This document shows, piece by piece, positions 5,862-17,340 of a DNA stretch of 64,000 bases. How positions within the stretch are numbered: the stretch's first letter is position 1; every line of letters starts with the position of its first letter. The DNA comes from an uncultured Bacteroidia bacterium (GTDB lineage Bacteria > Bacteroidota > Bacteroidia > Bacteroidales > UBA932), in assembly GCA_902789245.1 (NCBI GenBank), contig CADAND010000007.1, positions 62,001 to 126,000 of the forward strand. The letters are read 5' to 3'. The translations under genes and the position numbers were made by a program. The notes below the pieces were generated by a model. The model saw only the letters and a list, made by a program, of their open reading frames with translations, was not told the DNA's origin and did not search any database.

Positions 5862-6329
5862 ATGAAAGTCAGCATTATCATGGGATCCAAGAGCGACTGG
5901 GAGGTGATGTCAGCCGCTTGCGAGACCCTCGAACAGTTCGGGGTCCCCTACGAGAAAAAAGTCATCAGCGCACACCGCACACCTCAGTTCTTCAGTGAGT
6001 ACATGGCCACCGCCCGCGACCGCGGCGTGGGCATCGTGATTGCCGGCGCCGGCGGCGCCGCCCACCTGCCCGGCATGGCGGCCGCCCTGACTTCGCTCCC
6101 CGTGATCGGCATCCCGATCAAGAGCAAGGCGCTGAACGGGCTGGATTCCCTGCTGTCCATTGTACAGATGCCTTCCGGCATTCCCGTCGCGACGATGGCG
6201 ATCGACGGAGCCAAGAATGCCGCCCTCTACGCCATCGCCATGCTCGCCCTCCAGGACGCCGGCCTTGCGGCCAAGCTGGAGGACTTCCGGAAGAAACAGG
6301 CAGAAAAGGTCCTTCAAACCGAGATATAA
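5862..6329 (+). CDS. purE: N5-carboxyaminoimidazole ribonucleotide mutase
   Basis: It converts N5-CAIR to CAIR in purine synthesis. The 155-residue protein has GSKSDW (8-13), [18 protein letters not shown] and [12 protein letters not shown], the class I PurE signature that implies a partner PurK. No purK is in this window. I use the ATG at 5862. An earlier in-frame CTG/TTG region would begin at the transcription start. It is the first gene of the pur operon, and purL starts 3 nt after its stop. Confidence 0.95.
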
Positions 6330-6332
6330 ATT

Positions 6333-9300
6333 ATGAATGCACACCGCATCTTCGTAGAAAAGTGTTCGGAGTTCCAGGTTGAGGCGCAGAGCCTCAAGAA
6401 CGAGTTCAACGAAAACCTTTCTCTCTCGCTGCGTACCCTGCGGCTCCTGAATGTCTATGATTTGTTCGGCTTCTCCGACGAGCTGTTGGAGAAATGCCGC
6501 TACACGGTCTTTGGCGAGGTGGTCACGGACACCGTGACGGACGACTGCCCGCTCGAAGGCAAGAAATACCTGGCCGTCGAGTACATCCCCGGCCAGTTCG
6601 ACCAGCGGGCCTCCTCGGCCCTGGACTGCGTCCACCTGATCGACCCGTCGGCCGACGTGCAGATCCGCTCCTCGCGCCTGCTCATCTTTGACGACGACCT
6701 CTCCGACGAGACGCTCGCCGCCATCCGCCACTACTACATCAACGCGGTGGAGTCCCGGCCCAAGGATCTCGGCCGCCTGCAGCCGGAAGGCAAGGCGGAG
6801 GTGAAGCCGCTCGCCTCGCTTGCGGGCTTCACGAAGATGCAGCCCGCGGAGTACGCCGCCTTCTGCAAGCAGTGGGGCCTGGCGATGAACACGGACGACC
6901 TCGCCGAGGTGGTGCGCTATTTCACGAAGGAAGGCCGCGACCCGTCCGAGACGGAGCTGCGCATCCTCGACACCTACTGGAGTGACCACTGCCGCCACAC
7001 GACCTTCACCACCGAGCTGACGGACGTCCGCGTGGACGATTCCTTCGCCAAGGAGGAGATCGAGGCGGAGTACCGCGAATTCCTGTCCGTCCGCAAGGAG
7101 CTGGGCCGCGAGCAGAAGAGCCTCTGCCTGATGGAGCTCGCCACGATCGGCGCGCGCGTGCTGCGCAAGCGCGGTCTGCTGGAGGACCTGGAGCAGAGCG
7201 AAGAGAACAACGCCTGCAGCATCTTCGTGGACGTGGAAGTGGACGGGCAGCCGGAGAAGTGGCTGCTGCAGTTCAAGAATGAGACGCACAACCATCCGAC
7301 CGAAATCGAGCCGTTCGGCGGTGCGGCCACCTGTCTGGGCGGCGCCATCCGCGACCCGCTCTCCGGCCGGGCCTACGTATACCAGGCGATGCGCGTGACG
7401 GGTGCCGGCGACATCAACGCCGCCGTAAAGGACACCCTGGCGGGCAAGCTCCCGCAGCGCATGATCAGCCGCAAGGCGGCCCACGGCTATTCCAGCTACG
7501 GCAACCAGATCGGCCTCGCCACCACGCACGTGCGTGAAATCTATCACCCCGGCTACACGGCCAAGCGCCTCGAAGTGGGCGCCGTGGTGGGCGCCGTCAA
7601 GGCGGAGAACGTCCGCCGCGAGAGCCCCGCGCCGGGCGACGTGATCCTCCTGCTGGGCGGCCGCACGGGCCGCGACGGCATCGGCGGCGCCACCGGCTCC
7701 TCCAAGGAGCACACGGGCGCCTCGCTCGAGACCTGCGGCAGCGAGGTCCAGAAGGGCAACGCCCCGGAGGAGCGCAAGCTCCAGCGGCTTTTCCGCCGCC
7801 CGGACGTGACGCGCCTCATCAAGAAATCGAACGACTTCGGCGCGGGCGGCGTGAGCGTCGCCATCGGCGAACTGGCCCCCGGCCTGGACATCTACCTGGA
7901 CCGCGTGCCGACCAAATACAGCGGCCTGAACGCCACCGAGCTCGCCATCAGCGAGTCCCAGGAGCGCATGGCCGTGGTGGTGGAAGCGAAGGACCGCGCG
8001 GCCTTCGAGGCCCTGTGCGGCGAGGAGAACGTCGAGGTGACGCACGTCGCCGACGTGACCGACCGCGGCCGCATGCGCATGAGCTACCATGGCGAGACGG
8101 TCGCCGACCTCTCCCGCGAGTTCATCGACAGTGCCGGCGCGAAGCACTATTCCCAGGCGGTCATCGGCGCCGTCGAGGACATCGATCCGTTCCGCCGCGA
8201 GCCGGCGGGCGAGACCCTGAAGGAAAAGATGGTCGCGACCCTGTCCGACCCCAACGTGGCCTCCCAGAAGGGCCTCGTGGAGATGTTCGACTCCACGATC
8301 GGCCGTTCCACGGTGCTCATGCCTTACGGCGGCGCCCTGCAGGCCACGGAGACGCAGGTGTCCGTGCAGAAGCTCCCCGCCGACGGCTACACCGACACGG
8401 CCAGCATGATGGCCTTCGGCTACGACCCGTTCCTGTCGAGCTGGAGCCCGTACCACGGCGCCGCGTACGCGGTGGTGGACGCCTGCGCGAAGGTCGTCGC
8501 CGCGGGCGGTGAATGGTCGGGCATGCGCTTCTCCTACCAGGAGTACTTCGAGCGCATGACAGCCGACCCGCACAGCTGGGGCAAGCCGCTCTCCGCACTG
8601 CTCGGCGCCCTGAAGATGCAGCTCGCCTTCGGCCTGCCGTCCATCGGCGGCAAGGACTCGATGAGCGGCACCTTCGAGCACATCAGCGTGCCGCCCACCC
8701 TGATCGCCTTCGGCGTGACGACGGTGGACGCCCGCCGCGTCATCTCCCCGGAACTCAAGTGGGAGGGCAACAAGCTCTACCTCATCAAACATACCCCGCT
8801 GGCCAACCGCATGCCCGACACGGAGCAGCTGAAGGCCAACTGGGACTTCGTCCACGAGCAGATCGCCACGGGCAACGTGGTGTCCGCCTGGGCCCTGGGC
8901 CGCGGCGGCGTGGCGGAAGGCCTCGCCAAGATGGCCTTCGGAAACCTCTTCGGCGTGGACGTCAAGCTGGACGAGCGCCAGCTCTTTGACCTTGGCTACG
9001 GCTCCATCCTCGTGGAAGCGGAGGAGGCGCTGGACTTCCCGCAGGCCATCCTGCTCGGCGAGGTCACGCCCGGCGAGGACGGCCTGCTGCGCATCGGCGG
9101 CGAGCGCATCTCGATCGACCGCCTGATGGAGGCGAACGCCGGCAAGTACGCGAAAGTCTATCCGGCCAGGGTTCCCGCCGCCCATACCAAAATGCTGAAC
9201 TATATCCCGGTCTTCCCGGGCACGAACTGCGACTACGACACCGCCAAGGCGTTCCGCCGGGCGGGGGCCGACGTCAGCTTCGGCGTGTTCCGCAACCTCA

Positions 9301-9998
9301 CGGGCGCGGACGTGCTCAGCTCCATCGACGAGATGGCGCGCGCGATCGACGGCTGCCAGATCCTCATGCTCGCGGGCGGCTTCTCCGCCGGCGACGAACC
9401 GGACGGCAGCGGCAAATTCATCGCCAACGTGCTGAACAACGCCCGCGTGGCCCGGTCCATCGAGGGCCTGCTGGAGCGCGGCGGTCTCATCCTGGGCATC
9501 TGCAACGGCTTCCAGGCGCTCGTCAAGAGCGGCCTGCTGCCGTACGGCCACCTCGGGATGGTCACGCACGAGAGCCCGACCCTGTTCCGCAACGACATCA
9601 ACCGCCACATCTCCCAGATGGCCACGACGCGCGTCGCCACGACCCGCTCGCCCTGGCTCGCCGGTATGAACGTCGGCGACCTGCACACCATCGCCGTCAG
9701 CCACGGCGAGGGCAAGTTCATGGTCTCCGAGGCGCTGGCGAAGGAGCTCTTCGCCAAGGGTCAGGTGGCCTTCCAGTACGTGGATCCCTTCTCCGAGGAG
9801 GTCACGATGGAGGCGCCGTACAACCCGAACGGCTCCTACTACGCCATCGAGGGCATCATCAGTCCGAACGGCCAGATCCTCGGCAAGATGGGCCACACGG
9901 AGCGTTGGGAGCCCAACGTGTTCAAGAACATCGAGGAGGAACTGTACCAGCCGCTCTTCGACAACGCCGTGAGATATTTCAAGAAAAACCAATTATAG
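6333..9998 (+). CDS. purL: Phosphoribosylformylglycinamidine synthase, single-chain
   Basis: It converts FGAR plus glutamine and ATP to FGAM. The 1221-residue length is that of the large fused enzyme, with an N-terminal PurS-like part, two AIRS-like ATP-binding halves and a C-terminal glutaminase. Visible marks are DTYWSDHCRHTTF near residue 210, FKNETHNHPTEIEPFGGAATCLGG near 315-340, and GGFSAGDEPDGSGKF followed by GICNGFQ with nucleophile Cys1057. In contrast to PurF downstream, its glutaminase site is intact. purC begins 1 nt after the stop. Confidence 0.97.
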   Translation: MNAHRIFVEKCSEFQVEAQSLKNEFNENLSLSLRTLRLLNVYDLFGFSDELLEKCRYTVFGEVVTDTVTDDCPLEGKKYLAVEYIPGQFDQRASSALDCVHLIDPSADVQIRSSRLLIFDDDLSDETLAAIRHYYINAVESRPKDLGRLQPEGKAEVKPLASLAGFTKMQPAEYAAFCKQWGLAMNTDDLAEVVRYFTKEGRDPSETELRILDTYWSDHCRHTTFTTELTDVRVDDSFAKEEIEAEYREFLSVRKELGREQKSLCLMELATIGARVLRKRGLLEDLEQSEENNACSIFVDVEVDGQPEKWLLQFKNETHNHPTEIEPFGGAATCLGGAIRDPLSGRAYVYQAMRVTGAGDINAAVKDTLAGKLPQRMISRKAAHGYSSYGNQIGLATTHVREIYHPGYTAKRLEVGAVVGAVKAENVRRESPAPGDVILLLGGRTGRDGIGGATGSSKEHTGASLETCGSEVQKGNAPEERKLQRLFRRPDVTRLIKKSNDFGAGGVSVAIGELAPGLDIYLDRVPTKYSGLNATELAISESQERMAVVVEAKDRAAFEALCGEENVEVTHVADVTDRGRMRMSYHGETVADLSREFIDSAGAKHYSQAVIGAVEDIDPFRREPAGETLKEKMVATLSDPNVASQKGLVEMFDSTIGRSTVLMPYGGALQATETQVSVQKLPADGYTDTASMMAFGYDPFLSSWSPYHGAAYAVVDACAKVVAAGGEWSGMRFSYQEYFERMTADPHSWGKPLSALLGALKMQLAFGLPSIGGKDSMSGTFEHISVPPTLIAFGVTTVDARRVISPELKWEGNKLYLIKHTPLANRMPDTEQLKANWDFVHEQIATGNVVSAWALGRGGVAEGLAKMAFGNLFGVDVKLDERQLFDLGYGSILVEAEEALDFPQAILLGEVTPGEDGLLRIGGERISIDRLMEANAGKYAKVYPARVPAAHTKMLNYIPVFPGTNCDYDTAKAFRRAGADVSFGVFRNLTGADVLSSIDEMARAIDGCQILMLAGGFSAGDEPDGSGKFIANVLNNARVARSIEGLLERGGLILGICNGFQALVKSGLLPYGHLGMVTHESPTLFRNDINRHISQMATTRVATTRSPWLAGMNVGDLHTIAVSHGEGKFMVSEALAKELFAKGQVAFQYVDPFSEEVTMEAPYNPNGSYYAIEGIISPNGQILGKMGHTERWEPNVFKNIEEELYQPLFDNAVRYFKKNQL

Positions 9999-9999
9999 C

Positions 10000-10719
10000 A
10001 TGAAGAAAGGAGCACTGATCTTCGAGGGAAACGAGAAGCAGGTCTTCTCGACCGACCATCCCGACGAAGTCATTTTCCGTTACAAGGATGTGACGGTCGC
10101 CTACAACAACGTGAAGCGGGCCCGCTTCATCGGCAAGGGCGCCCTGAACAACCAGATTTCGTCCATCCTGCTGGACTACCTGAACAAGAATGGCGTGGAG
10201 ACCCATTTCATCCGTCAGGTGGGCGAGCAGGAGCAGCTCTGCCGCAAGATCGAGATCATCCCCCTGCAGGTGGTGGTGCACAACCGCATCGCCGGCTCGC
10301 TGGCCTACCGTCTCGGCGTGCCGGAGGGTTTCCGCCACGAGAACACCATCGTGGATCTCCGCTACAACAACGACGAGCTCGACGATCCCCTCATCAACCG
10401 CGACCATGCCGTCGCGCTCGGCCTGGCTTCCTACCGCGAGCTGGACGAGATGTACAACACGGCCCGCAAGGTGAACGACCTGCTCCGGCCTGTCTTCCAC
10501 AAGGCCGGCATCGAGCTGGTGGACATGAAGATCGAATTCGGCCGGGCTTCCGACTCGGGCGCCATCATCATCTCGGACGAGATCAGTCCCGACACCTGCC
10601 GCCTCTGGGACGAGGCCACGGGCGAGCGGATGGACAAGGACCGCTTCCGCTTGGACCTGAGCCGCGTGGTGGAGAGCTATACCAATGTGTTGAACCGTTT
10701 GAAAAAAGTGACTGAATAA
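10000..10719 (+). CDS. purC: SAICAR synthetase
   Basis: It ligates aspartate to CAIR with ATP. The 239-residue length is standard. The N-terminal KGALIFEGNEKQVFST resembles the Gly-rich ATP site. VVVHNRIAGSLAYRLGVPEG, IKIEFG-like MKIEFGR and SDEISPDTCRLWD are the conserved blocks of the family. It lies between purL and purF with 1-nt spacers on each side. Confidence 0.95.
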   Translation: MKKGALIFEGNEKQVFSTDHPDEVIFRYKDVTVAYNNVKRARFIGKGALNNQISSILLDYLNKNGVETHFIRQVGEQEQLCRKIEIIPLQVVVHNRIAGSLAYRLGVPEGFRHENTIVDLRYNNDELDDPLINRDHAVALGLASYRELDEMYNTARKVNDLLRPVFHKAGIELVDMKIEFGRASDSGAIIISDEISPDTCRLWDEATGERMDKDRFRLDLSRVVESYTNVLNRLKKVTE

Positions 10720-10720
10720 T

Positions 10721-12082
10721 ATGGGCGTTCTTGCTGTATATGGCGTGCCGAGCGCATCGACCTATATCTATTACGGACTGCACAACCTCCAGCACCGTGG
10801 CCAGGAAGGCGGCGGCATCATCACCTTTGATTCGAAAGGGGAGAGCCACCGCTACCGCGGACAGGGCCTGCTGAGCGAGATCTTCACCAACGGCGAGCTG
10901 ACCCACCTGCCCGGCAAGATCGGCATCGGCAGCGTCAAGTATGCCAACGCCTCCAAGGGCGGCCTGGACAACGTGGAGCCGCTGTTCTTCCACCACCATT
11001 CCGGCGACTTCGCCATCGCGGGGGAGGGCAACCTCATCAACGCCCGCCAGATCACGATGTATCTGGAGCGTCACGGATCCATCTTCCAGACCGGTACCGA
11101 CAGCGAACTGCTGGCGAACCTCATCAAAAAGGACCGGACCAAGGAGAACCGCATCATGACCATCGTCAAGGCCCTGAACATGATCGAGGGCGGCTTCACC
11201 TTCGTGATCATGACCAAGAACCGCATCTACGCCGCGCGCGACAAGTACGGCATCAAGCCCCTCTGCATCGGCAAACTGGGCGACGGCTACGTGGTCAGCA
11301 GCGAGTCCTGCGCCTTCGAGATCATGGGCGCGCAGTTCATCCGCGACGTCCAACCGGGCGAGATCGTCTCCATGGACAACCACGGCCTGCGCAGCACGAC
11401 CTATTCGCACTTCAACCGCCACCGCATGTGCGCGATGGAATACATCTACTTCGCCCGTCCGGACAGCGATATCGATGGCTGCAACGTCCATGCGTACCGC
11501 AAGGAAGCCGGCCGTCGTCTCTACCGCGAGAATCCGGTCGAGGCCGACATCGTGGTGGGCGTGCCCGAGTCCAGCCTCAGCGCGGCCATGGGCTTCGCCG
11601 AGGAGAGCGGCATCCCCTACGAGATGGGGCTGGTGAAGCACAAATACGTGGGACGCACCTTCATCCAGCCGGTCCAGTCGCTCCGCGAACTGGGCGTGAA
11701 GATGAAGCTCTCGCCGGTGCGCAGCATCGTGGCCGGCAAGCGCGTGGTGCTGGTGGACGACTCGATCGTCCGCGGCACGACCTCGCTCAAGATCGTCAAG
11801 ATGCTCCGCGAGGCCGGTGCCACGGAGGTGCACGTCCGCATTGCCAGCCCGATGATGAAATACACCTGCCACTACGGCGTGGATACCTCCACCGAGGAGG
11901 AGCTTCTCTGCTCTCACCGCACGCTGGAGGAGGCCCGCCAGGTGCTCGGCGCCGACTCCCTGGGCTACCTCAGCCCGGAGTCCACGCGCGACTCCTGCTT
12001 CGGCTGCGCCGACCCTTGCCAGGCGTGCTTCACGGGCGAGTACCCGACGCTCCTGTATGAAGAAATGATCGAAAACGACTAA
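10721..12082 (+). CDS. purF: Amidophosphoribosyltransferase with a degenerate glutaminase site
   Basis: PurF makes 5-phosphoribosylamine from PRPP and glutamine. The phosphoribosyltransferase half is intact (VVLVDDSIVRGTTS near 340-355), as are cysteines of the Bacillus-type Fe-S cluster (CFGCADPC near 427-434). The N-terminal glutamine amidotransferase fold is present (LQHRGQEGGGI, GTDSELL), but its chemistry is gone. The protein begins Met-Gly-Val where the family has Met-Cys-Gly. GHxRYxT is GSVKYANA (H71S, R73K), and the oxyanion-hole HNGN is GEGN (101-104). Upstream in-frame codons (Leu, Asn, Asn after a stop) do not restore a cysteine. It probably uses free ammonia or an ammonia-donating partner. 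Confidence 0.92.
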   Translation: MGVLAVYGVPSASTYIYYGLHNLQHRGQEGGGIITFDSKGESHRYRGQGLLSEIFTNGELTHLPGKIGIGSVKYANASKGGLDNVEPLFFHHHSGDFAIAGEGNLINARQITMYLERHGSIFQTGTDSELLANLIKKDRTKENRIMTIVKALNMIEGGFTFVIMTKNRIYAARDKYGIKPLCIGKLGDGYVVSSESCAFEIMGAQFIRDVQPGEIVSMDNHGLRSTTYSHFNRHRMCAMEYIYFARPDSDIDGCNVHAYRKEAGRRLYRENPVEADIVVGVPESSLSAAMGFAEESGIPYEMGLVKHKYVGRTFIQPVQSLRELGVKMKLSPVRSIVAGKRVVLVDDSIVRGTTSLKIVKMLREAGATEVHVRIASPMMKYTCHYGVDTSTEEELLCSHRTLEEARQVLGADSLGYLSPESTRDSCFGCADPCQACFTGEYPTLLYEEMIEND

Positions 12083-12091
12083 ACAAAAGAT

Positions 12092-13123
12092 ATGGCACAA
12101 TCTTACGAAAAAGCAGGCGTGAACCTGGAAGCGGGCTACGAGGTGGTCCGCCGCATCAAGCAGCACGTCGCCTCCACGGCCCGTCCGGGCTCGATGGGCG
12201 GCATCGGATCGTTCGGCGGCATGTTCGACCTCGCCTCGCTCGGCTACAAGGAGCCGGTCCTGGTGAGCGGCACCGACGGCGTGGGCACCAAGCTCAAGAT
12301 CGCCTTCGCGATGGACAAGCACGACACCATCGGCATCGACGCCGTGGCGATGTGCGTCAACGACGTGCTCGCGCAGGGCGCCGAGCCTCTCTTCTTCCTC
12401 GACTACGTGGCCCTGGGCCACAACATTCCCGCGAAGGTGGAGGCCATCGTGGCCGGCGTCGCCGAAGGCTGCCGGCAAGCGGGCTGCGCCCTGGTGGGCG
12501 GCGAGACGGCCGAGATGCCGGGCATGTACGAGGGTGACGAGTACGACATCGCGGGCTTCACGACCGGCGTCGTCGAGAAGAGCAAGCTCATCGACGGCAC
12601 GAAGGTGAAGGTGGACGACGTCCTGGTGGGCATCGCCTCCAGCGGCGTGCACTCCAACGGCTTCAGCCTCGTGCGCAAGATCGTCGCCGACGGCAAGCAC
12701 GCCTATTCCGAGGTCGTGCCCGAGTTCGGCGGCCGCACCCTCGGCGAGGTCCTGCTGACCCCGACGCGCATCTACGTCAAGCAGGTGCTCGACGTCATCC
12801 GCCAGTGCGACGTGCACGGCGTGGCGCACATCACGGGCGGCGGCTTCGACGAGAACATCCCCCGCATCCTGCGGGCGAACCAGGGCCTCGAGATCATCGA
12901 GGGCACCTGGGAGATCCTTCCGGTCTTCCAGGTCCTGGAGAAATGGGGCGGCGTCGCGCACCGCGAAATGTTCAACATCTTCAACATGGGCATCGGCATG
13001 GTGCTGGCCGTTGACGCCTCCGAGGCGGACAAGGCCATCAGCATCCTTGAGGCCCACGGCGAGAAGGCTTCCGTCATCGGCCGCGTCACGAACCAGCCGG
13101 GTGTCAATATCGTGATGGCCTGA
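12092..13123 (+). CDS. purM: Phosphoribosylaminoimidazole (AIR) synthetase
   Basis: It cyclises FGAM to AIR with ATP. The 343-residue protein shows [14 protein letters not shown] (49-62), [27 protein letters not shown] and [12 protein letters not shown], the conserved ATP and dimer motifs of PurM. It lies 9 nt after purF and 5 nt before purN. Nothing unusual is visible. Confidence 0.96.
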
Positions 13124-13128
13124 GTGTT

Positions 13129-13695
13129 ATGAAGAAGTTAGCGGTATTCGCCAGCGGCTCCGGGACCAACTTCGAGGCCATCGCCCAGGCTTGCGCCGAC
13201 GGGCGGCTGGACGCTGAAGTGGCCCTGATGGTCTGCGACAAGCCGGGGGCCGCCGTGGTGGCGCGCGCCGAGCGTTTCGGCGTCCCGAGCTTCGTGGCCA
13301 GCCCGAAGGAGTTCGCCTCCAAGGCGGACTTCGAGCGGGAGGTGATCCGGCGCCTGGACGCCGCAGGCATCGACCTCATCTGCCTGGCGGGCTACATGCG
13401 CATCATCTCCGACGTGCTGCTGGACGCCTACGGCGGCCGCATCATCAACATCCACCCCTCGCTGCTGCCGGCCTTCAAGGGTGCGCATGCCGTGGAGCAG
13501 GCGGTTGAATACGGCGTCAAGGTGTACGGAATCTCCATCCATTGGGTGAACGGCGACCTGGACGGCGGCAAGATCATCGCCCAGCGGGCCTTCGAATACG
13601 ACGGCTCCGATCCCGAGGAGGTGCACCGCATCGGTCAGAAGATTGAGCATCAGTTATACGTGGAAACCATACAGAAATTATTGAAACAGATATGA
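13129..13695 (+). CDS. purN: Phosphoribosylglycinamide formyltransferase, folate-dependent
   Basis: It formylates GAR using 10-formyl-THF. The 188-residue protein has the substrate loop SGSGTNFEA (9-17), the catalytic NIHPSLLPAFKG (Asn and His) and the Asp in GDLDGGKIIAQ. The cofactor it needs is made by the FolD half of the fusion protein encoded two genes downstream. Its stop overlaps the purH start by 4 nt. Confidence 0.95.
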   Translation: MKKLAVFASGSGTNFEAIAQACADGRLDAEVALMVCDKPGAAVVARAERFGVPSFVASPKEFASKADFEREVIRRLDAAGIDLICLAGYMRIISDVLLDAYGGRIINIHPSLLPAFKGAHAVEQAVEYGVKVYGISIHWVNGDLDGGKIIAQRAFEYDGSDPEEVHRIGQKIEHQLYVETIQKLLKQI

Positions 13696-15224
13696 GAGCG
13701 TTAGTCAGTGTAAGCGACAAGACCGGGCTCGTGCCTTTCGTGCAGGGGCTCCAGGCATTGGGTTGGACCATCATCGCCACGGGCGGCACGCAGAAGCTGC
13801 TGGAGAGCAGCGGCGTGAAGACCGTCGGCATCAGCGAAGTCACGGGCTTCCCCGAGATCCTCGACGGCCGGGTGAAGACCCTGCATCCGAAAGTGCACGG
13901 CGGCATCCTCGCGCGCCGCGACCTGCCGGCCCATATGCAGACGCTTGCCGAGCAGGGGATCGAGACCATCGACCTCGTGTGCGTAAACCTTTATCCTTTC
14001 CGCCAGACCATCGCCAAGGAAGGCGTGTCGATGGAGGATGCCATCGAGAATATCGATATCGGCGGCCCGTCGATGGTGCGCAGTGCCGCCAAGAACTGGC
14101 GCGACGTGACCATCGTCTGCGACCCCGCGGACTATGACCGCGTGCTGGACGAGCTCCGTGCCAACGGCAAGACCTCCGACCAGACGCGCCTGCAGCTCTC
14201 CGCCAAGGCTTATACCCACACGGCCGAGTACGACATGTGCATCTCTTCCTGGATGCGCAGGCAGGCTGGCCTGAACGAGAAACTCTTCCTCGAATACGAC
14301 CTCAAGCAGGGGCTCCGCTACGGCGAGAATCCCCACCAGGCCGCGAAGTTCTATGCGGCCCTGGAGCCCGCGCCCTATTCCCTCGCTTTCGCGAAGCAGA
14401 TCCAGGGCAAGGAGCTTTCCTACAACAATATCCAGGATGCCAACGCGGCCCTGAACGTGCTGCGCGACTTCTCCGACAAGCCCTTCTGCGTGGCGCTCAA
14501 GCACATGAACCCTTGCGGCGCGGCGGTCGGCGAGACCATCGAGCAGGCCTGGCAGGCCGCCTATGAGGCGGACAAGGTCAGCATCTACGGCGGCATCGTG
14601 GGCGTGAACCGCGAGCTCACCGCCGAGGTGGCCGCGGGCATGAAGCCCATTTTCCTGGAGATCGTGATCGCCCCGTCCTTCACCCCGGAGGCGCTGGAGA
14701 TCCTCTCCTCGAAGAAGAACCTCCGCGTACTGGAGGTGCCGATGGCCCCCGAGGCCCAGGCTCCGATGCAGTACGTCGGCGTGAACGGCGGCATGCTCGC
14801 GCAGCAGCTCGACACCGCCGTGGAGCAGGTGAAGCCGGAGATGTGCGTGACGAAGGTCCGGCCGACGGCGGCCCAGATGGCCGACCTCGACTTCGGCTGG
14901 CGCATCGTCAAGCACATCAAGTCCAACGCCATCGCCGTGGTGCGCGACAACCACACCATCGGCGTTGGTGCCGGCCAGACGAACCGCGTCGGCTCCGCCG
15001 AGATCGCGCTGGAGCAGGCCAAGGCGGCCGGATTCACCGAGGGGCTCATCCTCGCGTCCGACGGCTTCCTGCCCTTCGACGACACCGTGGCCCTGGCCGC
15101 GAAGTATGGCGTGACCGCCATCGTGCAGCCGGGCGGCAGCATCCGCGACGAGGATGCGATCAAGAAGGCGGACGAGCTCGGCATCACGATGCTCTTCACC
15201 GGAATCAGACATTTCAAGCATTAG
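13692..15224 (+). CDS. purH: Bifunctional AICAR transformylase / IMP cyclohydrolase
   Basis: It performs the last two steps to IMP. The N-terminal cyclohydrolase (MGS-like) domain has VSVSDKTGL, ATGGT and DGRVKTLHPKVHGG. The transformylase domain has LRYGENPHQAAKFY near residue 210, KHMNPCGAAVG and the C-terminal RVGSAEIALEQAKAAGF. The 510-residue length is typical. It overlaps purN by ATGA, and purD::folD begins 4 nt downstream. Confidence 0.97.
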   Translation: MRALVSVSDKTGLVPFVQGLQALGWTIIATGGTQKLLESSGVKTVGISEVTGFPEILDGRVKTLHPKVHGGILARRDLPAHMQTLAEQGIETIDLVCVNLYPFRQTIAKEGVSMEDAIENIDIGGPSMVRSAAKNWRDVTIVCDPADYDRVLDELRANGKTSDQTRLQLSAKAYTHTAEYDMCISSWMRRQAGLNEKLFLEYDLKQGLRYGENPHQAAKFYAALEPAPYSLAFAKQIQGKELSYNNIQDANAALNVLRDFSDKPFCVALKHMNPCGAAVGETIEQAWQAAYEADKVSIYGGIVGVNRELTAEVAAGMKPIFLEIVIAPSFTPEALEILSSKKNLRVLEVPMAPEAQAPMQYVGVNGGMLAQQLDTAVEQVKPEMCVTKVRPTAAQMADLDFGWRIVKHIKSNAIAVVRDNHTIGVGAGQTNRVGSAEIALEQAKAAGFTEGLILASDGFLPFDDTVALAAKYGVTAIVQPGGSIRDEDAIKKADELGITMLFTGIRHFKH

Positions 15225-15228
15225 TCCT

Positions 15229-17340
15229 ATGGCAAAAGATAAGAAAGTGCTCGTGGTCGGTGGCGGCGGACGCTGCCACGCCATCGTGGATGCGCTCAGC
15301 CGTTCCCCGCAGGTGGCGAAGATTTTCTGCGCCCCCGGCAACGCCGGCATCGCCGCGCAGGCGGAGTGCGTGCCCGTGAAGGACACGGATGTGGCCGGCC
15401 TGCTGAAGTTCGCGCAGGAGCAGGGGATCGACCTCACGGTCGTGGGCCCCGAGGCCGCGCTGTCCGTCGGCGTCGTGGATGCCTTCCGCGCCGCCGGGCT
15501 GAAGATTTTCGGCCACACGCAGGCCGCCACGCGCATTGAGAGCAGCAAGGAGTTCGCCAAGATCCTGATGGACAAGTACGCCATCCCGACGGCGGGCTAC
15601 CGCAGTTTCGACGACTTCGACGAGGCGCTCGCTTACGTGAACGCGCGGCCGTTCCCGGCCGTGCTGAAGTACGACGGCCTGGCCGCCGGCAAGGGCGTCG
15701 TGATCGCCGCCGACGCGGTGGAGGCGGAGGCCGCGCTGCGCAGCATGCTGCTCGACGAGGCCTTCGGCAAGGGCCGCGTGGTGGTGGAGGATTTCCTGAC
15801 AGGTCCCGAATTCTCCTTCATGGCTTTCGTGGACGGGGAGCGGGTCTATCCGATGCCGCTTTCGCAGGATCACAAGCGCGCCTTCGACGGCGACAAGGGG
15901 CCGAACACCGGCGGCATGGGTGCCTACACGGGCCTGCCCTTCATCACGAAGGAGGACGAATCCTTCGCCCTCGAGCAGATCCTGAAGGCCACCGCCAAGG
16001 CGATGGTCTCCGAGGGCTGCCCGCTGTCGGGCGTGCTCTACGGCGGCCTGATGAAGACCCCGGACGGCATCAAGGTGATCGAGTTCAACGCCCGCTTCGG
16101 CGACCCCGAGACCGAGGTCGTGCTGCCGTTGCTGGAGAGTGATATTTATGACGTGTTCGAGGCCGTGGCCACGGGCCGCCCCGTGGCGGAGCCGAAGTGG
16201 CGCAAGGCCGTGACGCTGGGTGTCGTGCTGGCCTCCAAGGGCTATCCCGGCTCCTACGAGAAGGGCGCCGAGATCCTCGGCGCGGACCAGGTCGACGGGC
16301 GCGTGTACCACATGGGCACCAAGCGCGACGGCGACCGCCTCCTGACGGCCGGCGGCCGCGTGATGATGGTCGTGGCCGAGGGCAAGGACACCCGTGCCGC
16401 CTGGGAGAAGGTGTACGCCGAGGTCGCCAAGATCCGCTGCGACAATCTTTTCTTCCGCCGCGACATCGCCCACTGGGCGCTGGACGGCAAGGTGCTGGAC
16501 GGCAAGGCGCTTTCGAATTCCATCAAGGACAGCCTGCGTGAGCAGGTGAGCAAGCTGGAGGTGAAGTACGGCCGCAAGCCGTCGCTGGCCGTCATCATCG
16601 TGGGCAATAATCCCGCGAGCCAGGTTTACGTGCGCAACAAGGTCAAGTCCGCCATCTATGTGGGGATGAATTCCCGCCTCATCACGATGGCCGAGGACGC
16701 CACCGAGGAGGCCCTCCTCAAGATGATCGACGACCTGAACCGCGATCCTGAGGTGGACGGCATCCTGGTGCAGCTTCCGCTGCCCAAACAGATCAACGAG
16801 GAGCGCGTCATCGACGCGATCGCCAAGGAGAAGGATGTGGACGGATTCCATCCCGGCAACGTCTCCGACCTCTGGCTCGGCCGTCCCTGCACCGTTCCCT
16901 GCACGCCGAAGGGCATCCTCCGGCTGATCGACGAGAGCGGCATCGACCTCGCCGGCAAGATCGCCGTGGTCGTGGGCCGCAGCAACATCGTCGGCAAGCC
17001 GGTGGCGAAGCTCCTGCTGGACCGCAACGCCACCGTGATCATCGCGCATTCCCGCACCAAGGACCTCAAGGCCATGACCCTGCAGGCGGATGTGCTGGTG
17101 GTGGCCGTCGGCCGGCCGAACATGGTCACGGGCGACATGGTGAAGCCCGGGGCCGTGGTGATCGATGTCGGCATCAACCGCGACGCGGACGGCAAACTCT
17201 GCGGAGACGTGGACTATGTCGGCGCCCGCCTGCGCGCTTCCGCGATCACGCCCGTGCCGGGCGGCGTGGGGCCGATGACCATCGCGATGCTGATGGAGAA
17301 CACGGTTGAGAGTTTCCTCGCGCGGGTGGAACCGCGTTAG
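15229..17340 (+). CDS. purD-folD: PurD-FolD fusion: GAR synthetase / methylene-THF dehydrogenase-cyclohydrolase
   Basis: One 703-residue frame carries two enzymes. Residues 1 to about 418 are PurD, an ATP-grasp ligase: VVGGGGRCHAIVDAL, GPEAALSVGVVDAF, VLKYDGLAAGKGVV, GGMGAYTG, EFNARFGDPETE, ending FFRRDIAHWAL. Residues about 420-703 are FolD: IIVGNNPASQVYVRNKVKSA with the catalytic Tyr and Lys, ILVQLPLPKQI, VVGRSNIVGKPVAKLLL and PVPGGVGPMTIAML. The junction has almost no linker and no internal stop, and neither half lacks a core motif. FolD makes the 10-formyl-THF used by PurN and PurH. The ATG at 15229 is chosen because the PurD family begins there. Confidence 0.93.
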   Translation: MAKDKKVLVVGGGGRCHAIVDALSRSPQVAKIFCAPGNAGIAAQAECVPVKDTDVAGLLKFAQEQGIDLTVVGPEAALSVGVVDAFRAAGLKIFGHTQAATRIESSKEFAKILMDKYAIPTAGYRSFDDFDEALAYVNARPFPAVLKYDGLAAGKGVVIAADAVEAEAALRSMLLDEAFGKGRVVVEDFLTGPEFSFMAFVDGERVYPMPLSQDHKRAFDGDKGPNTGGMGAYTGLPFITKEDESFALEQILKATAKAMVSEGCPLSGVLYGGLMKTPDGIKVIEFNARFGDPETEVVLPLLESDIYDVFEAVATGRPVAEPKWRKAVTLGVVLASKGYPGSYEKGAEILGADQVDGRVYHMGTKRDGDRLLTAGGRVMMVVAEGKDTRAAWEKVYAEVAKIRCDNLFFRRDIAHWALDGKVLDGKALSNSIKDSLREQVSKLEVKYGRKPSLAVIIVGNNPASQVYVRNKVKSAIYVGMNSRLITMAEDATEEALLKMIDDLNRDPEVDGILVQLPLPKQINEERVIDAIAKEKDVDGFHPGNVSDLWLGRPCTVPCTPKGILRLIDESGIDLAGKIAVVVGRSNIVGKPVAKLLLDRNATVIIAHSRTKDLKAMTLQADVLVVAVGRPNMVTGDMVKPGAVVIDVGINRDADGKLCGDVDYVGARLRASAITPVPGGVGPMTIAMLMENTVESFLARVEPR

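Follow-up and report, generated by a model that had tools for sequence, protein, structure and literature searches.

Results

A purine-operon PurF without a glutaminase site

We analysed a 64,000-nucleotide stretch of DNA (the window) from the genome of an uncultured Bacteroidia bacterium (G000, completeness 95.44) and found that its purine operon encodes a PurF-family protein, PurFd, which has lost the glutaminase site and kept the phosphoribosyltransferase site. PurFd is probably a PRPP transferase that makes 5-phosphoribosylamine (PRA) from free ammonia instead of glutamine while keeping its Ntn domain, with a Cys-bearing PurF (Cys-PurF) as an accessory enzyme. The operon runs purE-purL-purC-purF-purM-purN-purH-purD/folD, with the following features:

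5862..6329, + strand: purE (TIGR01162)
6333..9998, + strand: purL, glutaminase Cys motif GICNGFQ kept (TIGR01857)
10000..10719, + strand: purC (TIGR00081, 189.8 bits against a cut-off of 189.9)
10721..12082, + strand: purFd, PurF-family protein of 453 aa, glutaminase site lost and phosphoribosyltransferase site kept
10721..10723, + strand: start ATG, aligned to the catalytic Cys1 column
10928..10948, + strand: GSVKYAN, residues 70-76, the former glutamine loop GHVRYxT, with His71, Arg73 and Thr76 changed and Tyr74 kept
11021..11032, + strand: GEGN, residues 101-104, the former oxyanion motif HNGN, with an acid at 102
11429..12028, + strand: Cys237, Cys383, Cys433 and Cys436, at the columns where B. 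subtilis PurF has its Fe-S ligands
11654..11665, + strand: RTFI, residues 312-315, Ile315 corresponding to the E. coli channel-wall Ile335 by the shared TFI motif
11747..11785, + strand: PRPP-binding loop VLVDDSIVRGTTS, residues 343-355
12092..13123, + strand: purM (TIGR00878)
13129..13695, + strand: purN (TIGR00639)
13692..15224, + strand: purH (NF002049/TIGR00355)
15229..17340, + strand: purD-folD fusion (TIGR00877 at residues 7-418, FolD models from residue 421)

A preliminary description of this DNA had claimed that the PurF lacks a working glutaminase site, and the alignment with a PurF structure that it proposed bore this out. Residues 2-449 aligned to B. subtilis PurF (1ao0), which placed the start Met on the Cys1 column; GHVRYAT was replaced by GSVKYAN and HNGN by GEGN. 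Among the features by which PurF is recognized, the catalytic N-terminal Cys was absent, Lys73 and Asn76 stood in place of the glutamine-binding Arg73 and Thr76, and Glu occupied the oxyanion Asn position of HNGN. The PRPP-binding loop DDSIVRGTT was present, in agreement with the claim of an intact transferase motif. No Cys can be recruited upstream, as had also been proposed, because just three codons (L-N-N) separate the preceding stop from the purFd ATG. The reading frame scored 454.8 bits against TIGR01134 (purF, NCBIfam; cut-off 350), and its AlphaFold model showed a PurF fold with middling confidence (pLDDT 75.1). Judged by sequence, PurFd is a PurF, yet it lacks the features by which a glutamine amidophosphoribosyltransferase is defined.

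The operon setting was conserved: of 77 PurFd loci, 74 had an adjacent purM and 76 a neighboring purC or purL, which we count in favor of ammonia-dependent PRA synthesis. Three of the four neighbor misses were contig ends or truncated loci; at the fourth (L054), which is rearranged, purC-purF precedes purE-purL, either through a real rearrangement or an assembly fault. At least two pur genes were present at all 50 PurFd loci in the wider neighborhood survey. In the window, purD and folD form one 704-aa reading frame; many relatives have a separate folD match beside purD.

PurFds form one clade with a fixed altered site

Scanning named genome contigs for the altered stretch yielded 53 loci, nearly all from Bacteroidales/Bacteroidia MAGs. 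The sources include Candidatus Cacconaster, Egerieousia and Equicola, and many are ruminant stomachs by their record titles. The site was altered in 49 of these loci, and four (L092-L095) had the Cys. One step on this set took 48 loci (leaving out L050, L051, L066, L090 and L095). We then compared 76 PurFds with a readable N-terminus, comprising the first loci and 26 sequences added later, some of them near kin. Column 1 was Met in all 76, and oxyanion column 102 was always acidic (Glu in 40, Asp in 36). Asn occupied column 76 in 75 sequences and Thr in none, while Arg73 was lost in 71 and present in five. The channel-wall pair Tyr74/Ile315 was invariant (76/76), which we also count in favor of ammonia use. 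The N-terminal Cys was present in 34 of 34 canonical-type PurFs. Since Met at the Cys1 column and Asp/Glu102 recur in all 76 PurFds, we excluded a sequencing error, including the lost TGC codon that had been named as a possible refutation; a wrong start was rejected on the same agreement among relatives and on the lack of an upstream Cys codon.

A comparison of 27 Cys-PurFs with 50 PurFds over 449 columns picked out ten that were fixed (≥90%) in the former and lost (≤5%) in the latter; eight of these ten, among them columns 1, 71 and 102, lie in the N-terminal domain. The transferase loop, RTFI, Lys306, Lys329 and the Fe-S-type Cys residues were unchanged, while Cys1, His71 and Asn102 were lost throughout. 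The newly fixed pocket residues Asn76 and Asp/Glu102 would also suit an enzyme with a new amine donor, or one whose product is something other than PRA. We consider this very unlikely, as PurFd sits among purine genes and the genomes with PurFd alone, described below, show no other PurF to make PRA.

In a tree built from the transferase domain only, a branch with 100/99 support set all 46 included PurFds apart; six PurFs were left out, five that lack the cutting motif (L068, L086, L087, L092, L093) and one truncated (L090). The transferase domain by itself thus groups the PurFds into a single clade. In other members of the family (L117-L119, L122-L124), the purine-operon PurF carries the Cys. 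In two Rikenellaceae (Alistipes) loci, L092 and L093, the purine-operon PurF keeps Cys1 and has Leu for Arg73, Ala for Thr76 and NNGS/NNGC for HNGN, a partly eroded glutamine site and possibly an intermediate state. A scan of viral contigs found no relative, and the matches in plasmid records were all below 60% identity.

Median dN/dS in PurFd was 0.19 for the N-domain and 0.07 for the transferase domain (473 non-independent pairs), indicating that both domains are under purifying selection, a point in favor of the ammonia interpretation. Constraint is weaker in the N-domain than in the transferase domain, which we count against this interpretation. For the Cys-PurF N-domain, three close sister pairs and one outgroup pair gave 0.10-0.17; the whole Cys-PurF control (14 pairs) was inflated by saturated distances and set aside. 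Across 15 genomes, transferase-domain identity between genomes averaged 92.5% for PurFd versus 68.7% for second copies, and the PurFd value was the higher one in 104 of 105 genome pairs. PurFd is therefore the slow-changing copy, which also speaks for ammonia use. The lost glutaminase residues and the relaxed N-domain could instead suggest that PurFd is decaying and that Cys-PurF carries purine synthesis, but purifying selection on both domains and the slower change of PurFd speak against decay, and it is Cys-PurF, not PurFd, that comes and goes among genomes. We regard decay as hardly credible.

A second, Cys-bearing PurF lies with nitrogen genes

The preliminary description had not seen another PurF in this genome. 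One exists: G000 encodes a second, complete PurF of 578 aa on another contig (G000:C10), and the idea of a single PurF was rejected. This protein has the Cys (MEVLKHE|CGV), GHLRYST and an intact PRPP loop, with GNFN in place of HNGN. It is a diverged long form whose TIGR01134 score of 145.9 bits falls short of the cut-off (350). Its gene belongs to a one-strand cluster of type III glutamine synthetase (glnN), gltB, gltD, a stretch of roughly 2 kb, amtB (assigned from its N-terminal part), further DNA, a gene for a 238-aa protein, asnB, purF and glmS. With purF and glmS set aside, the cluster is similar to ammonium-regulated genes of Prevotella ruminicola, namely glnN-gltBD and glnK-amtB-asnB (PMC5552732); that source is inconsistent on whether glnN, gltBD, amtB and asnB respond to limiting (section 7) or non-limiting ammonium (section 13). 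The 238-aa protein (L005:18452-19171, − strand), which had no match in Pfam or NCBIfam, lies between amtB and asnB, where homologs recur in relatives, and may match PRU_1977 of P. ruminicola in position, as far as the gene order given in PMC5552732 goes.

Second copies in PurFd genomes were either of the long form or of canonical type, with CGV/CGI, GHVRY and HNGN. One genome, G205, has three PurFs (L157, L168, L169): PurFd in the pur operon, a long Cys-PurF within the nitrogen cluster and, next to pyrG, a Cys-PurF of canonical type. We fetched 34 second Cys-PurFs from PurFd genomes (without, for example, those of G060, G179, G201, G190 and G115) and searched their surroundings for glutamine/nitrogen genes, defined as matches to glnN, gltB, gltD, amtB, asnB, glmS, pyrG, carA, carB or the 238-aa protein. 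Such a gene lay within 2.5 kb of 29 of the 34 second copies (one of the 29, L116, by a weak GltD match of 34% identity) versus none of 77 PurFd loci. Farther out, at about 4-9 kb, a carA/carB, glnN or gltD-like gene, mostly carA/carB, was found at 20 of 50 PurFd loci, which we count against the ammonia interpretation. On a tree of 41 PurFd genomes, Cys-PurF changed state 14 times, at least ten of them on supported branches. Cys-PurFs thus come and go among relatives, while PurFd is constant.

Some near-complete genomes contain PurFd alone

Among 184 family genomes at least 93% complete, all genomes surveyed being drafts or MAGs, 42 have PurFd. These were chosen by a match not starting at profile position 1, and the sequence confirmed 41 of them; the remaining one, G190, is a fragment without the N-terminus. 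PurFd was the only PurF found (E ≤ 1e-6) in 17 of these 42 near-complete genomes, which we count in favor of ammonia use. Among the other 25, G138 has two PurFds and no Cys-PurF, and G175 has a partial second match.

Because the Cys-PurF lies in a nitrogen cluster, has changed state 14 times and is missing beside PurFd in these 17 genomes, its discovery leaves the ammonia interpretation standing, even though a second Cys-bearing PurF had been named beforehand as a possible refutation. The Cys-PurF of G000 could carry the purine flux there, and we count this against ammonia dependence.

The same genomes bear on whether PurFd is catalytically idle and regulates or scaffolds Cys-PurF. A paralog with a dead domain that coexists with Cys-PurF in 24 of 42 genomes would fit such a role. 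We nevertheless consider it highly improbable, since PurFd has an intact transferase site, which is also its most conserved part, and 17 near-complete genomes with a pur operon have PurFd and no Cys-PurF.

GOGAT (PF04898) was found in none of the 17 PurFd-only genomes versus 18 of the other 25. Grouped by Cys-PurF, 17 of 24 genomes with it had GOGAT versus one of 18 without (Fisher p = 2.3e-5, the genomes being non-independent); over ten independent pairs, about 5.5 agreed, none disagreed and 4.5 showed no difference (p = 0.03-0.06). The association is therefore strong as a count and borderline over independent pairs. The exceptions were seven of 24 genomes with Cys-PurF and no GOGAT, and G138, which has GOGAT and no Cys-PurF.

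GlmS exceeded the cut-off in three of the 17 PurFd-only genomes and was present as two pieces in one more. It was not found at E ≤ 1e-40 in the other 13 (G171, G149, G210, G181, G139, G212, G165, G185, G140, G164, G135, G113, G027), all of which have NagB over the cut-off; these genomes may make glucosamine-6-phosphate from ammonia by NagB or import glucosamine. Ammonia-type AsnA was present in 12 of the 17, and in 33 of all 42 PurFd genomes. AsnA uses ammonia, as does NagB run in reverse, and PurFd-only genomes therefore lean on enzymes able to use ammonia, a point in favor of the ammonia interpretation. The CNG glutaminase motif of PurL was kept in 52 of 52 reading frames checked (three from Cys-PurF loci); the cells therefore still use glutamine in the purine pathway, which we count against the ammonia interpretation. 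That G000 has abandoned glutamine amidotransfer altogether was rejected, given its PurL Cys motif, GlmS, AsnB and GltB.

A kept glutaminase elsewhere could also supply PurFd. PurL, or a Cys-PurF in a mixed oligomer, might hand over ammonia so that PRA synthesis stays glutamine-dependent in trans. PurFd has kept its channel wall and N-domain, PurL with its intact glutaminase motif is encoded two genes upstream, and G000 has a Cys-PurF. In 17 genomes, however, there is no Cys-PurF partner; in 13 of them the PurF model has no further class II match (E ≤ 1e-6), and beside PurFd there is no candidate partner gene other than pur genes. We consider supply in trans unlikely.

Discussion

Textbook purine synthesis begins with glutamine. 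The best reading of our comparisons is that PurFd would be a housekeeping, ammonia-dependent PRPP aminotransferase and Cys-PurF an accessory, glutamine-dependent isozyme. The preliminary suggestion of a probably ammonia-dependent enzyme thus stands as the best-supported reading, the site being lost and the transferase kept, and the Cys-PurF of the same genome counts against it without overturning it. A glutamine analog in E. coli PurF is bound by Arg73, through a salt bridge, and by Thr76, and Tyr74 together with Ile335 makes up a wall of the NH3 channel (PMC7953260). Replacing the Cys of PurF is reported to abolish the use of glutamine and to leave that of ammonia (cited in PMC3261824). With Arg73/Thr76 lost, Tyr74/Ile315 kept and Cys replacement sparing ammonia use, the most economical interpretation is that free ammonia reaches the transferase through the retained channel.

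We propose that ammonia and PRPP would yield PRA at the transferase site of PurFd, while the N-terminal domain, a presumably dead Ntn domain, would still form the ammonia channel with the transferase domain; its retention fits a structural or channel role. The old glutamine pocket is a candidate ammonium entry point, and the invariant acid that replaces the oxyanion Asn suggests the entry site. Cys-PurF, beside glutamine synthetase, GOGAT, AmtB and enzymes that use glutamine, probably serves a glutamine-based nitrogen supply. The lost site and its conservation, the clade, the gene linkage and the contents of the genomes are observations; from them we infer the activity of PurFd, its donor, the port and the timing of each isozyme.

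More tentatively, and at somewhat below an even chance, this large Bacteroidales clade of rumen and gut may have turned the committed purine step into a dedicated ammonia reaction by remodeling the Ntn site into an ammonium port. Two enzyme sets would then share the amination of PRPP, aspartate and fructose-6-phosphate: one using ammonia (PurFd, AsnA, NagB), and one using glutamine (Cys-PurF, AsnB, GlmS) that is carried along with GS-GOGAT. Several members would depend wholly on free ammonia for PRA.

In the open-access library searched, no Bacteroidota PurF lacking the Cys had been described; the nearest printed idea found is PurF' of Crenarchaeota (PMC3261824). What is new here is a bacterial PurFd clade as the purine-operon PurF, near-complete genomes with no other PurF detected, and a Cys isozyme linked to nitrogen/glutamine genes. 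As some near-complete genomes of the clade lack any other detectable PurF, ammonia-driven purine synthesis becomes directly testable. It would be tied to the rumen, for which PMC5552732 gives ammonium levels of 4 to 70 mM. Automatic annotation as amidophosphoribosyltransferase would put the wrong nitrogen donor into metabolic models of PurFd bacteria, and PurFds may be natural enzymes in which evolution has uncoupled glutaminase from transferase.

Comparison with known systems

PurFd resembles B. subtilis PurF (TIGR01134; 1ao0/1gph) in fold, length, PRPP loop, Fe-S-type Cys residues and purine-operon setting, with about 51% identity, and differs in lacking Cys1, the Arg73/Thr76 glutamine pair and the oxyanion Asn, whose position holds an acid. 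Like the AsnA/AsnB and NagB/GlmS pairs, PurFd and Cys-PurF would offer a choice of two enzymes for a single amination, one taking ammonia and the other glutamine; G000 has AsnA, AsnB, NagB and GlmS. The enzymes within each of those pairs come from unrelated protein families, whereas PurFd and Cys-PurF are both PurF-family members.

Further PurF-like proteins in this bacterial family, of about 480 aa, are here called type B (L021-L040, L125-L130, L133, L136); like PurFd, they lack the N-terminal Cys and keep the DDSIVRGT loop. They start M-G-G or M-S-G, have no glutamine-loop motif and are far more diverged than PurFd, scoring 160-207 bits against TIGR01134 with a pattern of their own (ISDT, no HNGN). 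None of eight fetched type B loci lay among pur genes, and in several genomes (e.g., G011, G018) type B was the only PurF match and GlmS was not seen. Type B looks like a Cys loss separate from that of PurFd.

Crenarchaeal PurF' is a PurF paralog without the N-terminal Cys, encoded near purine genes, which its authors propose to be an ammonia-dependent aminotransferase; by their account, each Crenarchaeon also has a Cys-PurF close by (PMC3261824). By that description both PurF' and PurFd are PurF-like proteins without the Cys; common descent appears unlikely, because PurFd is close to Bacteroidota PurFs. PurF' is a second copy near Cys-PurF and purine genes, whereas the Cys-PurF of G000 lies on another contig. 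Unlike PurF' as described there, PurFd replaces Cys-PurF inside the purine operon, with the second copy elsewhere among nitrogen genes, and in 17 genomes it is PurFd that is the only PurF found.
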